Position numbers and translations under genes: made by a program. Below are positions 22,130 to 25,934 of a stretch of 59,870 nt of DNA, in pieces. A model generated the notes under the pieces. It saw nothing but the letters and a program-made list of their open reading frames with translations, searched no databases and was not told where the DNA came from. How positions within the stretch are numbered: the stretch's first letter is position 1; the number at the start of each line of letters is the position of its first letter. The DNA lies in assembly GCA_020722005.1 (NCBI GenBank), contig DYLP01000013.1:1-59870 (forward strand), given 5' to 3'. This DNA is from Melioribacter roseus (GTDB lineage: Bacteria; Bacteroidota; Ignavibacteria; Ignavibacteriales; Melioribacteraceae).

Positions 22130-22561
22130 TCAATACGCAAATCCATTAATTGACGGTACTGCAAAATCTTTTCCCTTCTTTTTCAAGAGCGTAAAAAGAT
22201 AATAAAGAAGAGTTTTAACGTCGGTCGGTTTTGTAAGATACATATCGCAGCCGGCGTTTAACGCATTAATTCTGTCTCGGTTCATTGCAAAAGTTGTATA
22301 GCATAATATCGGTATATGCGAATAGGTTTCTCTATTCTTCAATTCTTTCATTAATTGAATCCCGTCCTTGTCGCCTTTTAAAGCAATGTCCATAAGTATT
22401 ATATCGTAACTATTTTGGGAGAGGAGCTCGTAAAGTTCTTCTGCAGATTCGCAAGTATCGGGCAGGAAATATTTTTTTAGATAGATTTTCAGAAAATGCC
22501 TGTTGTCGTTATCTCCTTCTGCAATTAATATTCTAGGTTTTTTTACTTCTTGTTCTTCCAT
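22130..22561 (-). CDS. Single-domain response regulator (receiver only)
   Basis: 143 residues from ATG 22561. The receiver fold is complete: E15/D17 in LIAEGDNDN (the acidic pair is separated by Gly), phosphoacceptor D58 in IILMDIALKGD, T89/T90 in CYTT and K111 in LTKPTD. There is no output domain, so it acts by protein contact or as a phosphorelay intermediate. The start lies inside the 3' end of the kinase gene (29-base overlap), strong evidence they form a pair. Confidence 0.9.
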   Translation of the reverse strand: MEEQEVKKPRILIAEGDNDNRHFLKIYLKKYFLPDTCESAEELYELLSQNSYDIILMDIALKGDKDGIQLMKELKNRETYSHIPILCYTTFAMNRDRINALNAGCDMYLTKPTDVKTLLYYLFTLLKKKGKDFAVPSINGFAY

Positions 22562-23834
22562 AACTATTACCCTCAAAAATAACCGTGAAAACCGAGCCGG
22601 TACCAAGCTCGCTTTTTACTTCAATTCTAGCATTGTTGATATCCAGAAGATTTTTAACTAAAGCCAGACCCAAACCGGTACCCTCAAATGGTTTAGAGTA
22701 TGACATATTTGCTTGAGAAAACGGAGTGAATAATTTATCAATATATTCGGGAGGCATTCCAACACCGTTGTCTTTGACGTCCACGTAGAAAAAGTCTTCA
22801 TCCCTGCGTAAAATTATATCTACGTTGCCGTTCTCGGAATATTTAATTGCATTGTCGATCAAATGTGAAAAGATTTGATTTACTGAATAATGATCGGCTA
22901 TTACAATCGTATCTTCCGTTTTGGGAACTATACTGAGTGCTACATTCTTTTCCGCTGCATAGGTGGCAAATTCGTTTGTGAGAGATTTGATTATTGGCAG
23001 TACATCGATACGCTCAAAACGTAAATTGAACGTGCCTGTTTGTATTTGTGACATATTGAGTAGCAGGTCGAATGTTCTGTAAAGTCGTTTGCTGTTGTTG
23101 ATTATCGACAGATAAATATCTCTCATGTCAGCATCATTACTGCTTCTGGCTTCTTCCAGCAGCATATTAGAAAATCCAATAATGACATTTAAAGGCGAGC
23201 GAACTTCGTGTGATATCTGTGAAAGGAAAAACTCTTTTAACTTTTGCGACTCTTCGGCTTTACGCAATGCTTCCAGTAATTCTTTCTCCGACCTTTTCAG
23301 TTCGGTAATATCTCGTCCGTATATCTGACAAATTTCGAGACTCGAAATGCCGCTTATCTTGAACTGGAAATAATTTTGATTGATTTGTGTTGTGTAATTA
23401 ATTGTAATATCTCGCTTTATCATTTCATAAATATCGAGGTCTTTTGTAAAAGGGAGGACTTCGGAAATTTTCGTGCCGAGCAATACCTTAAAAGGAAATA
23501 CTTTATGTGCAGCGTCATTTGCCAGTATTATATTGCTTGCTTTGTCTACGCGGAATACCGGGTCGGGCGCAAGACTCGCAAAGAGAGCCATTAATTCAGT
23601 CTGGCGTAGCTGCATCGTCTTTTCTTCTTTCTGGTGGCGTTTCTGCATTGGCAGTACTACATACCAGAAAAACATAAATGACACCACGAGTATGACTGCT
23701 ATCAGAAGAATGGCATAGAAATACGGGTTCTCAGCGCTGAATAACGACTCGGGCCCTATCTCCTTTAACGATCGCAAAGAAGAGTCCAAAGGAGATTTGG
23801 AAGATTGTTGTAATAAAAAAGTAAGCAGTTGCAT
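22533..23834 (-). CDS. Membrane-anchored PAS histidine kinase
   Basis: About 433 residues from ATG 23834 (another ATG at 23855). One transmembrane helix at about 40-65 (YFYAILLIAVILVVSFMFFW) is followed by a linker helix, a PAS domain (about 90-180, DPVFRVDKASNIILANDAAH), HisKA (QISHEVRSPLNVIIG) and HATPase (NLIDNAIKYSENG-like N box, DNGVGMPPEY, GTGLGLALV). The start lies about 100 bases inside the preceding membrane-protein gene in another frame. No start codon exists between the upstream stop and the membrane helix, so the overlap appears genuine. Third gene of a four-gene operon; its partner receiver follows. Confidence 0.9.
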   Translation of the reverse strand: MQLLTFLLQQSSKSPLDSSLRSLKEIGPESLFSAENPYFYAILLIAVILVVSFMFFWYVVLPMQKRHQKEEKTMQLRQTELMALFASLAPDPVFRVDKASNIILANDAAHKVFPFKVLLGTKISEVLPFTKDLDIYEMIKRDITINYTTQINQNYFQFKISGISSLEICQIYGRDITELKRSEKELLEALRKAEESQKLKEFFLSQISHEVRSPLNVIIGFSNMLLEEARSSNDADMRDIYLSIINNSKRLYRTFDLLLNMSQIQTGTFNLRFERIDVLPIIKSLTNEFATYAAEKNVALSIVPKTEDTIVIADHYSVNQIFSHLIDNAIKYSENGNVDIILRRDEDFFYVDVKDNGVGMPPEYIDKLFTPFSQANMSYSKPFEGTGLGLALVKNLLDINNARIEVKSELGTGSVFTVIFEGNSYGRTRSKKT

Positions 23835-24306
23835 TTGTGAATCCCAGAGCCACATTTAAATATTTAAGTATTGTCGTAAATTCATAAAAAATTAACATTA
23901 ATAGGAATATATCGAGTTCGCTCTTAAATGAGAAACGAATAATAAATTCTTTGAGAAAAAGAAATACAATAAGAAAATGGAGAATCCCAACTGTGAGTTG
24001 GGATTGCTCCAATAACAAAGTCAGTATGAACGTTAGTAAGGTAGCCGTAATTGTAACTGTGAAGTGATATTTCTCATTCAACTTCTCTTTCTTATAGATA
24101 GACAAAAAAAGCAACAGTGAAACAAATGGGAAGTAAAAATAAATATGTATATAAATGAAATTTTTAATGAATAAGGATATTGGATCGGCTAAAGCCAGTA
24201 TCAGAAAAAAATAAAAATATTTTGTTTTCCACTGACGTATTGGTGGAAATAACCACACAACTATGCTTATGTAAAACAATATTTTTAAAATTTCGATGAT
24301 ACTCAA
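23731..24306 (-). CDS. Multi-pass membrane protein of sensory operon, unknown function
   Basis: 191 residues from TTG 24306, placed two bases after the preceding stop with GAGGA as ribosome binding site. The alternative ATG at 24345 would overlap the preceding gene. Six hydrophobic helices are visible, joined by short loops (for example SIIEILKILFYISIVVWLFPP and TVTITATLLTFILTLLL). The C-terminal tail is short. I recognise no named family; layout resembles the membrane sensory modules that precede kinases. It may be the split-off sensory half of the downstream kinase, whose own membrane part is a single helix. Confidence 0.7.
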   Translation of the reverse strand: MSIIEILKILFYISIVVWLFPPIRQWKTKYFYFFLILALADPISLFIKNFIYIHIYFYFPFVSLLLFLSIYKKEKLNEKYHFTVTITATLLTFILTLLLEQSQLTVGILHFLIVFLFLKEFIIRFSFKSELDIFLLMLIFYEFTTILKYLNVALGFTNATAYFFITTIFQISFGLFFAIVKGDRARVVIQR

Positions 24307-24307
24307 A

Positions 24308-24814
24308 TTAGTCCTCAGGACAGTATGGTGGACAATCAGTAGCAAATTCTAGAGTACTAATTGAATTACTGAGCGTTAAAATAGAGTTCGCTTGTAATGA
24401 AGAAGTAGTTCTGCTGCCTCTTACCGCTTCGCCTCCTCTGATTTCAATCTCAATGACCGAGTCGTTTGTACTGTTAAGAAATTCTTCGACCACTTCTTTG
24501 CTGAAGAGGAAGCCTTTTTCACCCGTGTCAAGAGTTACATTATTATCGAGTAACGGTTTTCTGCTGCTGTTGAACAATAGCGGTCTTTTTCCCTTTACGG
24601 CAAAAAGAATGTATTTATCCACACGGGAAAGGGCAGCTTTGAGAATATCTTTCTTTATTTTTACAGAAAAATCCACTTTGCCAAAAAGCTGATTGGCTTC
24701 TTCTTTACCGAAAATTTTACCGAACCGTACATCCTGGTTCTGAGCTATAGTTAAAGAAGAGAATAAGATTACCATAAAGGAAATCATCAGTGTGATACTG
24801 AGAGTTTTTTTCAT
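24308..24814 (-). CDS. Secreted protein with Cys-bearing tail, first gene of sensory operon
   Basis: 168 residues. Clear Sec signal peptide MKKTLSITLMISFMVILFSSLTIAQ. The mature part is a polar alpha/beta stretch with IFGKEEANQLFGKVDF and DKYILFAVKGKRPLLF, a Ser/Thr-rich section, and the terminal sequence ATDCPPYCPED holding the only two cysteines. I do not recognise the family. RBS AAGGGGG precedes ATG. Position at the head of an operon with a membrane protein, kinase and receiver makes an extracytoplasmic sensing or signalling role plausible; that is inference. Confidence 0.7.
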   Translation of the reverse strand: MKKTLSITLMISFMVILFSSLTIAQNQDVRFGKIFGKEEANQLFGKVDFSVKIKKDILKAALSRVDKYILFAVKGKRPLLFNSSRKPLLDNNVTLDTGEKGFLFSKEVVEEFLNSTNDSVIEIEIRGGEAVRGSRTTSSLQANSILTLSNSISTLEFATDCPPYCPED

Positions 24815-24893: not shown

Positions 24894-25934
24894 TCATAAT
24901 AAAAAAAATCTTCCGTCGATTTTTGTTGAGCAATAGTTACATTTTCCTTCTGTAAGCGAAATTTCTATAATTGAATGCCAATCTCTTTTTATAACGGCTT
25001 TGCCGCAGTCAGGACAGTAAGTCGTTTGTCCTTCGATGTTATGAATATTGCCAGTGTAGCAGTATTTAATGCCCATATTGAGAGCAATATTTCGCGCTCT
25101 AGCAAGTGTAGAAGGCGGTGTAGGGGGTTTGTCTCTCATTTTGAAATCCGGATGAAAAGCCGTAAAGTGTAACGGAACCCGATCGCCCAAATTATTTAAT
25201 ATCCACTCGCACATTTTTTTTATTTCATCGTCTGAATCATTTTCACCGGGAATTAACAATGTTGTAATTTCGAACCAGATGTCGGTTTCGTTGTGAAGCC
25301 ATTGGAGCGTATCGAGTACAGGTTGAAGGTGCGAAAAAGTTAATTTATGATAGAATTCCTCAGTAAAAGCTTTCAGGTCTACATTGGCTGCGTCGATATA
25401 TTGAAAAACCTCCTTGCGAGCTTCTTTGTCGATGTAGCCAGCCGTAACCATAACCGATTTGATATTCTGCTGCCGGGCCAATTTAGAAATATCAATTACA
25501 TACTCGCCGAATATTACCGGATCGTTGTAAGTAAAAGCAATAGAGGGAACATTATACTTCAATGCTATATTTACAACGTCTTCGGGAGAAGCTTCAACAG
25601 AGTTTATATTGTCGATTTTTGCCTTGCTAATCGACCAGTTCTGACAGAATTTACAACCGAGATTGCAGCCGGCGGTACCGAAACTGAGTATTTTGCTTCC
25701 TGGCATAAAATGAAAGAGTGGTTTTTTTTCGATCGGGTCAATGGCAAAGCCTGTGGGATGACCGTATCCAAGTGTATAAAGATAGCCGTCGATATTCTGG
25801 CGTATGTAGCAAAAGCCTGCCTGATTATTCCCGATTGTGCAGTAGCGCGGACATAGTGTACAAAGGATTTTGCCCTTATCGTTTGCAGTCCACCATTTAG
25901 CGGGTTTGTATTTCAAGCCAACCGTTCTATCCAT
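24894..25934 (-). CDS. amrS: AmrS-type radical SAM enzyme (AmmeMemoRadiSam)
   Basis: 346 residues. The radical SAM cluster motif is CNLGCKFC in FGTAGCNLGCKFCQNW. The N-terminal LCTLCPRYCTIG and the C-terminal zinc-like TTYCPDCGKAVIKRDW are characteristic of AmrS, the radical SAM part of the AmmeMemoRadiSam system. In many genomes AmrA/AmrB (AMMECR1 and Memo homologues) lie beside it; here they are absent from the window. The biochemical substrate is not something I can state. RBS AGAAGGGA precedes ATG. Confidence 0.9.
   Translation of the reverse strand: MDRTVGLKYKPAKWWTANDKGKILCTLCPRYCTIGNNQAGFCYIRQNIDGYLYTLGYGHPTGFAIDPIEKKPLFHFMPGSKILSFGTAGCNLGCKFCQNWSISKAKIDNINSVEASPEDVVNIALKYNVPSIAFTYNDPVIFGEYVIDISKLARQQNIKSVMVTAGYIDKEARKEVFQYIDAANVDLKAFTEEFYHKLTFSHLQPVLDTLQWLHNETDIWFEITTLLIPGENDSDDEIKKMCEWILNNLGDRVPLHFTAFHPDFKMRDKPPTPPSTLARARNIALNMGIKYCYTGNIHNIEGQTTYCPDCGKAVIKRDWHSIIEISLTEGKCNYCSTKIDGRFFLL

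Follow-up and report, generated by a model that had tools for sequence, protein, structure and literature searches.

An exported CPPxC-tailed protein and a seven-helix membrane protein as a candidate sensory front end of a two-component system in Melioribacter roseus

Organization of the locus

The window analysed in this study is a 59,870-nucleotide stretch of DNA from Melioribacter roseus (Bacteroidota; Ignavibacteria; Ignavibacteriales; Melioribacteraceae), positions 1 to 59,870 of contig DYLP01000013.1 in assembly GCA_020722005.1. The host assembly comprises 2.66 Mb in 79 contigs, and the other genome assigned to the genus is a single 3.3-Mb contig. On its minus strand, from 24814 down to 22130, the window carries a compact unit with the layout SP-TM7-kinase-receiver, in which the genes of an exported protein (SP) and a seven-helix membrane protein (TM7) lie ahead of those of a histidine kinase and a stand-alone receiver. 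An earlier annotation made from the letters of this DNA, hereafter the sequence-only reading, had described four minus-strand genes packed with overlaps; all four are open reading frames (ORFs), with the following coordinates.

24308..24814, minus strand: SP, exported protein of 168 amino acids, first gene of the unit (ORF and family alignment)
24740..24814, minus strand: SP signal peptide (residues 1-25), assigned by eye, with cleavage near ...TIAQ (sequence; helix at residues 3-25 in the structure model)
24320..24334, minus strand: CPPYC, C-terminal motif of SP (CPPxC plus 0-12 residues at the end of 83 of 85 complete SP proteins)
23731..24306, minus strand: TM7, seven-helix membrane protein, TTG start (model, family hydropathy and loops; N terminus predicted outside and C terminus inside by the positive-inside rule)
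22533..23834, minus strand: histidine kinase from the conserved ATG, 433 amino acids (Pfam; start from the codon test; ORF open to an earlier ATG at 23855)
23731..23834, minus strand: overlap of the TM7 last helix and tail with the kinase N terminus in the +1 frame, dual-coding as judged by synonymous-codon identity
22130..22561, minus strand: stand-alone receiver, 143 amino acids, without output domain (Pfam Response_reg, 6.3e-19)

The exported 168-residue protein ending in DCPPYCPED was confirmed by its ORF and signal peptide, as was the 29-base overlap between the kinase and receiver genes. The interval between the SP stop codon and the TTG of the TM7 gene, given previously as two bases, is one base (stop at 24310-24308, TTG at 24306). 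The overlap between the membrane and kinase genes, estimated at about 100 bases, measures 125 bases from the first ATG of the kinase frame and 104 bases from the ATG shared by its relatives (eighth codon, 23834).

SP and TM7 are encoded side by side

With the single SP as query, matches at E 0.01 were found in 47 of the 79 genomes of the family, and a 33-row SP profile matched 97 of the 164 genomes of the order at E 1e-4. Phylum-wide, 33 of 395 genomes match the SP profile at E 0.001; three of these belong to one family outside the order, in which three of the four genomes searched have SP matches. TM7 is matched at E 0.001 in 94 of the 164 genomes of the order. Eighty neighbourhoods, designated below by L numbers, were hand-picked, mostly among the better matches and not at random. 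With L154 left out and three SP genes with less than 500 nucleotides (nt) downstream set aside, a TM7 gene was found no more than 300 nt downstream and on the same strand for 73 of 80 SP genes, each with 500 nt or more of downstream sequence; by profile matches alone, TM7 follows SP in at least 101 of 129 cases. Among the seven SP genes that are not directly followed by TM7, three, from the family outside the order (L136, L137 and L138), precede a different membrane protein of 277-282 residues and then a kinase; in L069 and L148 the place of TM7 is taken by small hydrophobic proteins of other kinds, in L066 a second copy of SP comes first, then TM7, and the seventh gene, that of L065, is taken up below. 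The membrane protein of L136-L138 aligned to TM7 with an hhalign probability of 3.3 over 184 columns. The kinases of these three loci have the same N-terminal NP helix as those described below, and their ORFs again overlap the membrane gene.

The kinase gene lies downstream in 37 of 71 SP-TM7 pairs and upstream in 24, and none was found nearby in the remaining 10. The second main layout is kinase-LuxR regulator-SP-TM7, and a few loci combine the two. The four-gene order of the window is not unique to this strain: it recurs in many loci of other genera, which indicates that the arrangement is not due to chance.

Co-inheritance was measured as the correlation of tree distances over 61 modules, pairs with an SP of 100 residues or less or a TM7 of 150 residues or less being left out. 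The correlation was 0.58 for SP and TM7, 0.78 for TM7 and the kinase and 0.54 for SP and the kinase, and in each case none of 2000 permutations gave a value as high. In the upstream layout alone, the SP-kinase correlation falls to 0.30.

The exported protein ends in a paired-cysteine tail

The fetched loci contain 86 distinct SP ORFs, of which one with a cut 3' end was set aside. CPPxC followed by 0-12 residues ends 83 of the 85 complete proteins, with 1-3 residues after the motif in 75 of these 83, and 66 of the 83 have no further cysteine in the preceding 115 residues. In the 33-row alignment, G32, A40, R126 and E156 are invariant, as are the four fixed letters of CPPxC. A lipobox-like sequence is present in 5 of 83 SPs, and SP is probably lipid-anchored in some species, as judged from these sequences. 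The SP of L142 (L142:4480-5292) consists of two full repeats, each closed by CPPYC; as the first repeat ends in the motif, CPPxC can also be internal. Within this genome, the idea that CPPxC is a sorting tag common to unrelated exported proteins was rejected: the genome has six DNA matches to CPPxC, and a long open frame precedes the motif only at SP (166 codons upstream, versus 1-9 for the others).

No Pfam and no NCBIfam family matched more than one of 33 SP members, no SCO1/SenC match was found among them (Pfam, E 0.1), and a search of PDB and known enzymes with SP gave nothing below E 0.3. The structure model, built from a 3-row alignment, shows a mixed alpha-beta domain (pLDDT 73.4); its last strand runs to residue 156, and pLDDT drops below 50 at residues 162-164 and 166-168. 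All 50 structural matches listed for this model are DNA clamps or clamp-like processivity factors with Z of 8 or less; the best has Z 8.0 over 101 residues with a root-mean-square deviation of 2.8, a score level that is common according to the tool, and Foldseek aligned SP with a DNA clamp at E 4.8e-3 and a TM-score of 0.38. A clamp-like arrangement in SP, if real, would say nothing on DNA. Internal duplication of the SP domain was not supported by profile comparison, its halves having no detectable similarity (probability 3.55).

TM7 is a seven-helix protein outside named families

The sequence-only reading had assigned six helices to the membrane protein. Seven fit better: the structure model has seven helices, at low confidence (57.5), and seven hydrophobic stretches are seen across 107 members of the family. 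Lysines plus arginines were summed per loop over these 107 members, the loop limits being those of the low-confidence model; the means for loops 1-2 to 6-7 and then the C terminus were 2.44, 0.87, 2.97, 0.54, 1.56, 0.21 and 2.40. This alternation of basic loops points to an N terminus outside and a C terminus inside. That the protein belongs to no recognised family, as had been stated, stands: for SP and TM7 together, the Pfam and NCBIfam searches gave only chance-level matches to single members and one HTTM match. In Pfam, 31 TM7 members matched no family except for this HTTM match in one of them (E 1.8e-4), and in NCBIfam these 31 members had no match.

Two known seven-helix input domains were tried as identities for TM7 and rejected. 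Neither HisKA_7TM (PF16927) nor 7TMR-DISM_7TM (PF07695) was matched by any of the 31 members in Pfam, and the hhalign probabilities were 0.31 over 18 columns and 4.96 over 30 columns, respectively. As controls, the two known seven-helix families aligned with each other at 74.5, and an ABC permease aligned with TM7 at 0.12.

TM7 lies beside one-helix kinases of two types

In the window, the kinase and the receiver score well above the Pfam cut-offs (HATPase_c 1.4e-24, HisKA 4.8e-11, Response_reg 6.3e-19). The kinase consists of a short N-terminal part, one transmembrane helix with an NP...P motif, a weak PAS, HisKA and HATPase_c. It had been described as a kinase with one transmembrane helix and a PAS domain; the helix is confirmed, and the PAS matches lie below the Pfam cut-off in the window kinase and above it in two relatives (L059 and L142). 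Among the downstream kinases scanned, HisKA is found in six of eight (the window, L118, L035, L040, L059 and L140) and HisKA_3 in L141 and L142, whose kinases precede a regulator that is LuxR-type by sequence. All six upstream kinases scanned carry HisKA_3 (L117, L118, L060, L063, L122 and L055). On these domain assignments, the kinase type follows the regulator type.

The N-terminal helix of the kinases is conserved, with NP near its start and a proline about 26 residues later. A strict NP pattern was found in 72 of 82 kinases near TM7, several of the misses being close variants, and in 3 of 11 other kinases. These 11 unlinked kinases include those of L136-138, beside the different membrane protein, and that of L152, where the position of TM7 lies beyond the contig end; the three positives are the kinases of the outside family, beside their own membrane protein. 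The receiver is bare, as had been described, and without an output domain it must act by protein contact or phosphate relay. It reads EGD, a variant common to the other genome of the genus (L031), at a site where 27 of 37 receiver-only regulators read EDD by a crude text pattern; EGD may alter receiver phosphorylation.

The TM7 and kinase genes share a dual-coding overlap

Of 39 TM7-kinase pairs, 34 have a kinase ORF that starts 70-170 nt ahead of the TM7 stop codon, in the +1 frame in 33 of the 34. For this count, TM7 genes shorter than 150 amino acids or touching the end of the locus were left out, and L034, L154 and L155 (truncated, SP not found, or overlapping another locus) were excluded from the overlap, codon, tree and motif analyses. 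An in-frame ATG is present 86-107 nt before the TM7 stop in 32 of the 34 pairs, the exceptions being L141 and L142. In the 34 overlapping genes, the identity of synonymous codons was compared among sequences sharing a residue: inside the overlap it was 0.732 versus 0.449 expected, with 30 of 32 columns above expectation, and upstream of the shared ATG it was 0.448 versus 0.428 expected. In 71 TM7 genes without overlap the values were 0.444 and 0.439, and after thinning to 27 genes (<60% identity) the identity within the overlap was still 0.705 versus 0.452 expected. Column by column, the constraint rises from about the shared ATG codon. By this codon test the overlap codes in both frames. Because the rise sets in near the shared ATG, which is in frame, the window kinase most likely starts at 23834, and a frameshift fusion of TM7 and kinase is not favoured.

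SP-less TM7 genes and a TM7-LuxR fusion

The SP-less TM7 genes that were fetched follow a kinase-LuxR regulator pair, as one to three tandem TM7 genes. Tandem arrays of three were seen in L162, L164, L165 and L166, and L163 has four after the kinase; L163 also carries an SP without CPPxC tail. Profiles of SP-linked and SP-less TM7 aligned with each other at an hhalign probability of 100. The only other TM7 match of this genome (E 4.1e-10) is the N-terminal part of a 299-residue protein with a LuxR DNA-binding domain at its end, encoded as follows.

L240:5672-6571 (G000:C30:5672-6571): TM7-LuxR fusion, candidate membrane-bound one-component regulator (GerE 6.7e-18)

The fusion was matched at E 1e-12 in 15 of the 164 genomes of the order, including this one, mostly near full length; some of these rows cross a stop, and the match in G461 covers the DNA-binding end only. 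Of all the observations, the fusion speaks most strongly for TM7 being an input domain, since TM7 is here wired straight to an output. Together with the SP-less sets, it makes TM7 look like the receptor and SP its partner outside.

Neighbouring genes

A radical-SAM-like gene lies directly upstream of SP on the same strand (24894-25934). Of the 42 SP loci whose kinase is downstream, 25 have such a gene just ahead of SP by text motif, so it may be on the same transcript as the SP unit. Other flanking genes are those that we take to encode pyruvate kinase, MetK and AhcY; a text pattern for AhcY, too strict for its count to be trusted, found such genes in 5 of 42 loci.

A model for signal input

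Many sensor kinases have no obvious sensing part outside the membrane. We propose, with moderate confidence, that SP and TM7 together serve a two-component system as its sensory front end, the kinase being unable to sense outside signals by itself. The best reading of the gene orders is that SP-TM7 would be a detachable, modular front end, usable with kinases of either phosphoacceptor type encoded upstream or downstream. In this model TM7, with its N terminus outside and its C terminus inside, would be a receptor docking on the single transmembrane helix of the kinase. SP would fold outside the cytoplasmic membrane and offer the outer face of TM7 its flexible CPPxC tail, the cysteine pair acting as a switch or a contact. 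A change in the tail (thiol-disulfide exchange, metal binding or ligand capture) would alter the contact between TM7 and the kinase and thereby kinase activity. In the window locus the phosphate would go to the bare receiver, which would act by protein contact or hand the phosphate on; the LuxR-type regulator would receive it in those upstream-kinase layouts that were scanned. The cysteine pair of the tail suggests redox, metal or tethered-ligand sensing.

The sequence-only reading had likewise suggested that the exported protein and a six-helix protein form the extracytoplasmic detector. The conserved SP-TM7 order agrees with this; the helix number does not, nor does the occurrence of TM7 without SP. 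The question it had raised of whether the two proteins are independently distributed receives a split answer, SP being tied to TM7 in 73 of 80 cases and SP being missing in front of 49 of the 150 TM7 matches listed.

Several observations weigh against the front-end model. These 49 TM7 genes imply that TM7 can serve a kinase by itself, SP being an add-on, and the SP-linked and SP-less TM7 differ mildly per column (e.g., Y141, 0.92 versus 0.56). The SP copy of L065 is followed by no ORF of at least 60 amino acids starting within 400 nt downstream. The exact tail is absent in 2 of 85 SPs, L069 (CPPCC...) and L155 (no motif; this gene is also the one in L163), and one of these two still precedes TM7 and a kinase. 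The tail is disordered in the SP model, so the SP-TM7 contact is unproven, and the confidence of the TM7 model is low (57.5). The near-invariant columns of TM7 contain no cysteine or histidine, so redox or metal chemistry, if any, would reside in SP alone. Finally, the co-variation of the trees is partly species history and is thus support for, not proof of, co-evolution.

A more far-reaching version of the front-end model, which we hold only tentatively, is that TM7 represents a new modular family of seven-helix receptors, used as a separate chain with one-helix kinases of two phosphoacceptor types and fused to a LuxR factor, and that SP is its exported co-receptor, with the CPPxC tail as a tethered, thiol- or metal-gated ligand inserted in the outer face of TM7. 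The proposed logic may be likened to that of an animal seven-transmembrane receptor with a tethered agonist.

Three other explanations were weighed. SP and TM7 could modulate the kinase, binding it and setting its phosphatase/kinase balance or its stability as a feedback, as SaeP and SaeQ do, the signal entering through the PAS or the kinase helix. The same cast is found in sae, where SaeP, SaeQ and SaeS reportedly form a ternary complex in which the phosphatase activity of SaeS is induced (PMC5083920), and a PAS is weakly matched in the window kinase and above cut-off in two relatives; however, the kinase-less TM7-LuxR fusion and the SP-less kinase-regulator-TM7 sets fit an input domain better, and we judge modulation unlikely. 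Somewhat less probable still is a precursor role for SP, in which the CPPxC segment would be released as a secreted signal, perhaps in the form of a small disulfide loop, and sensed as a pheromone by TM7 and the kinase. The short tail past the last predicted strand, its two paired cysteines, the fixed core amid variable neighbours and the two repeats of the L142 SP, each ending in CPPYC as in multi-copy precursors, would suit such a role. On the other hand, the SP domain is conserved as well as the tail, some SPs are lipoprotein-like, the first CPPYC of L142 is internal, and no recurring processing or export gene was noticed in gene orders in which most neighbours are without identification. 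It is very improbable that TM7 acts on SP as an enzyme or carrier, handling thiols or metals for instance, and that the kinase is merely co-transcribed: the paired cysteines resemble thiol or metal sites by spacing and the genes are tightly packed, yet the near-invariant TM7 columns are free of cysteine and histidine, TM7 exists in sets that lack SP and in fusion with a DNA-binding domain, and the tree co-variation is highest between TM7 and the kinase.

Returning to the front-end model, the genomes give good support to the unit as a case where recurring proteins separate from the kinase, and without a family in Pfam or NCBIfam, apparently provide the sensing part; SP was matched in 97 of the 164 genomes searched of one order. 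Three features each lend themselves to a clear and cheap experiment, namely the nearly invariant tail, the fusion of TM7 to LuxR and the dual-coded start of the kinase, and profiles of SP and TM7 would let annotators name two families.

Comparison with known systems

The titles and abstract openings listed by searches of openly licensed papers showed no description of an SP-TM7 unit. In 7TMR-DISM and HisKA_7TM proteins (PF07695, PF16927), a seven-helix input domain lies ahead of signalling domains, and both families are present in relatives of this genome; TM7 shares the seven-helix input, whereas it is a separate chain without detectable homology to them (hhalign 4.96 and 0.31, respectively). 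Sco-type SenC/PrrC proteins, encoded beside the membrane kinase RegB/PrrB, have an extracytoplasmic cysteine pair of the CPxxC type; SP differs in carrying its motif as a C-terminal tail and in having no SCO1/SenC match in 33 members. Agr-type peptide systems combine an exported small product, a polytopic protein, a kinase and a regulator. In contrast to these, 33 SP and 31 TM7 members gave no AgrB or AgrD match in Pfam, and the near-invariant columns of TM7 lack cysteine and histidine.

The SaePQRS system of Staphylococcus aureus, as described in PMC5083920, shares with the SP unit a small exported protein, a polytopic protein, a kinase with a minimal extracytoplasmic part and a regulator, all in one operon. 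SaeP is a lipoprotein, SaeQ has four predicted helices, SaeS has two helices joined by a 9-residue outside linker, and the phosphatase activity of SaeS is reportedly induced by SaePQ, the three proteins forming a ternary complex (PMC5083920). The two systems differ in helix numbers (four in SaeQ versus seven in TM7, two in SaeS versus one in the window kinase), in output, as SaeR binds DNA whereas the window receiver is bare, and in gene order; a CPPxC tail is not mentioned in the passages of PMC5083920 consulted. As the helix numbers differ, the SP unit may be said to work like SaePQRS, and not to be a member of that system. SaePQRS is the closest working analogue found for the SP-TM7 unit, the likeness drawn here being one of working.

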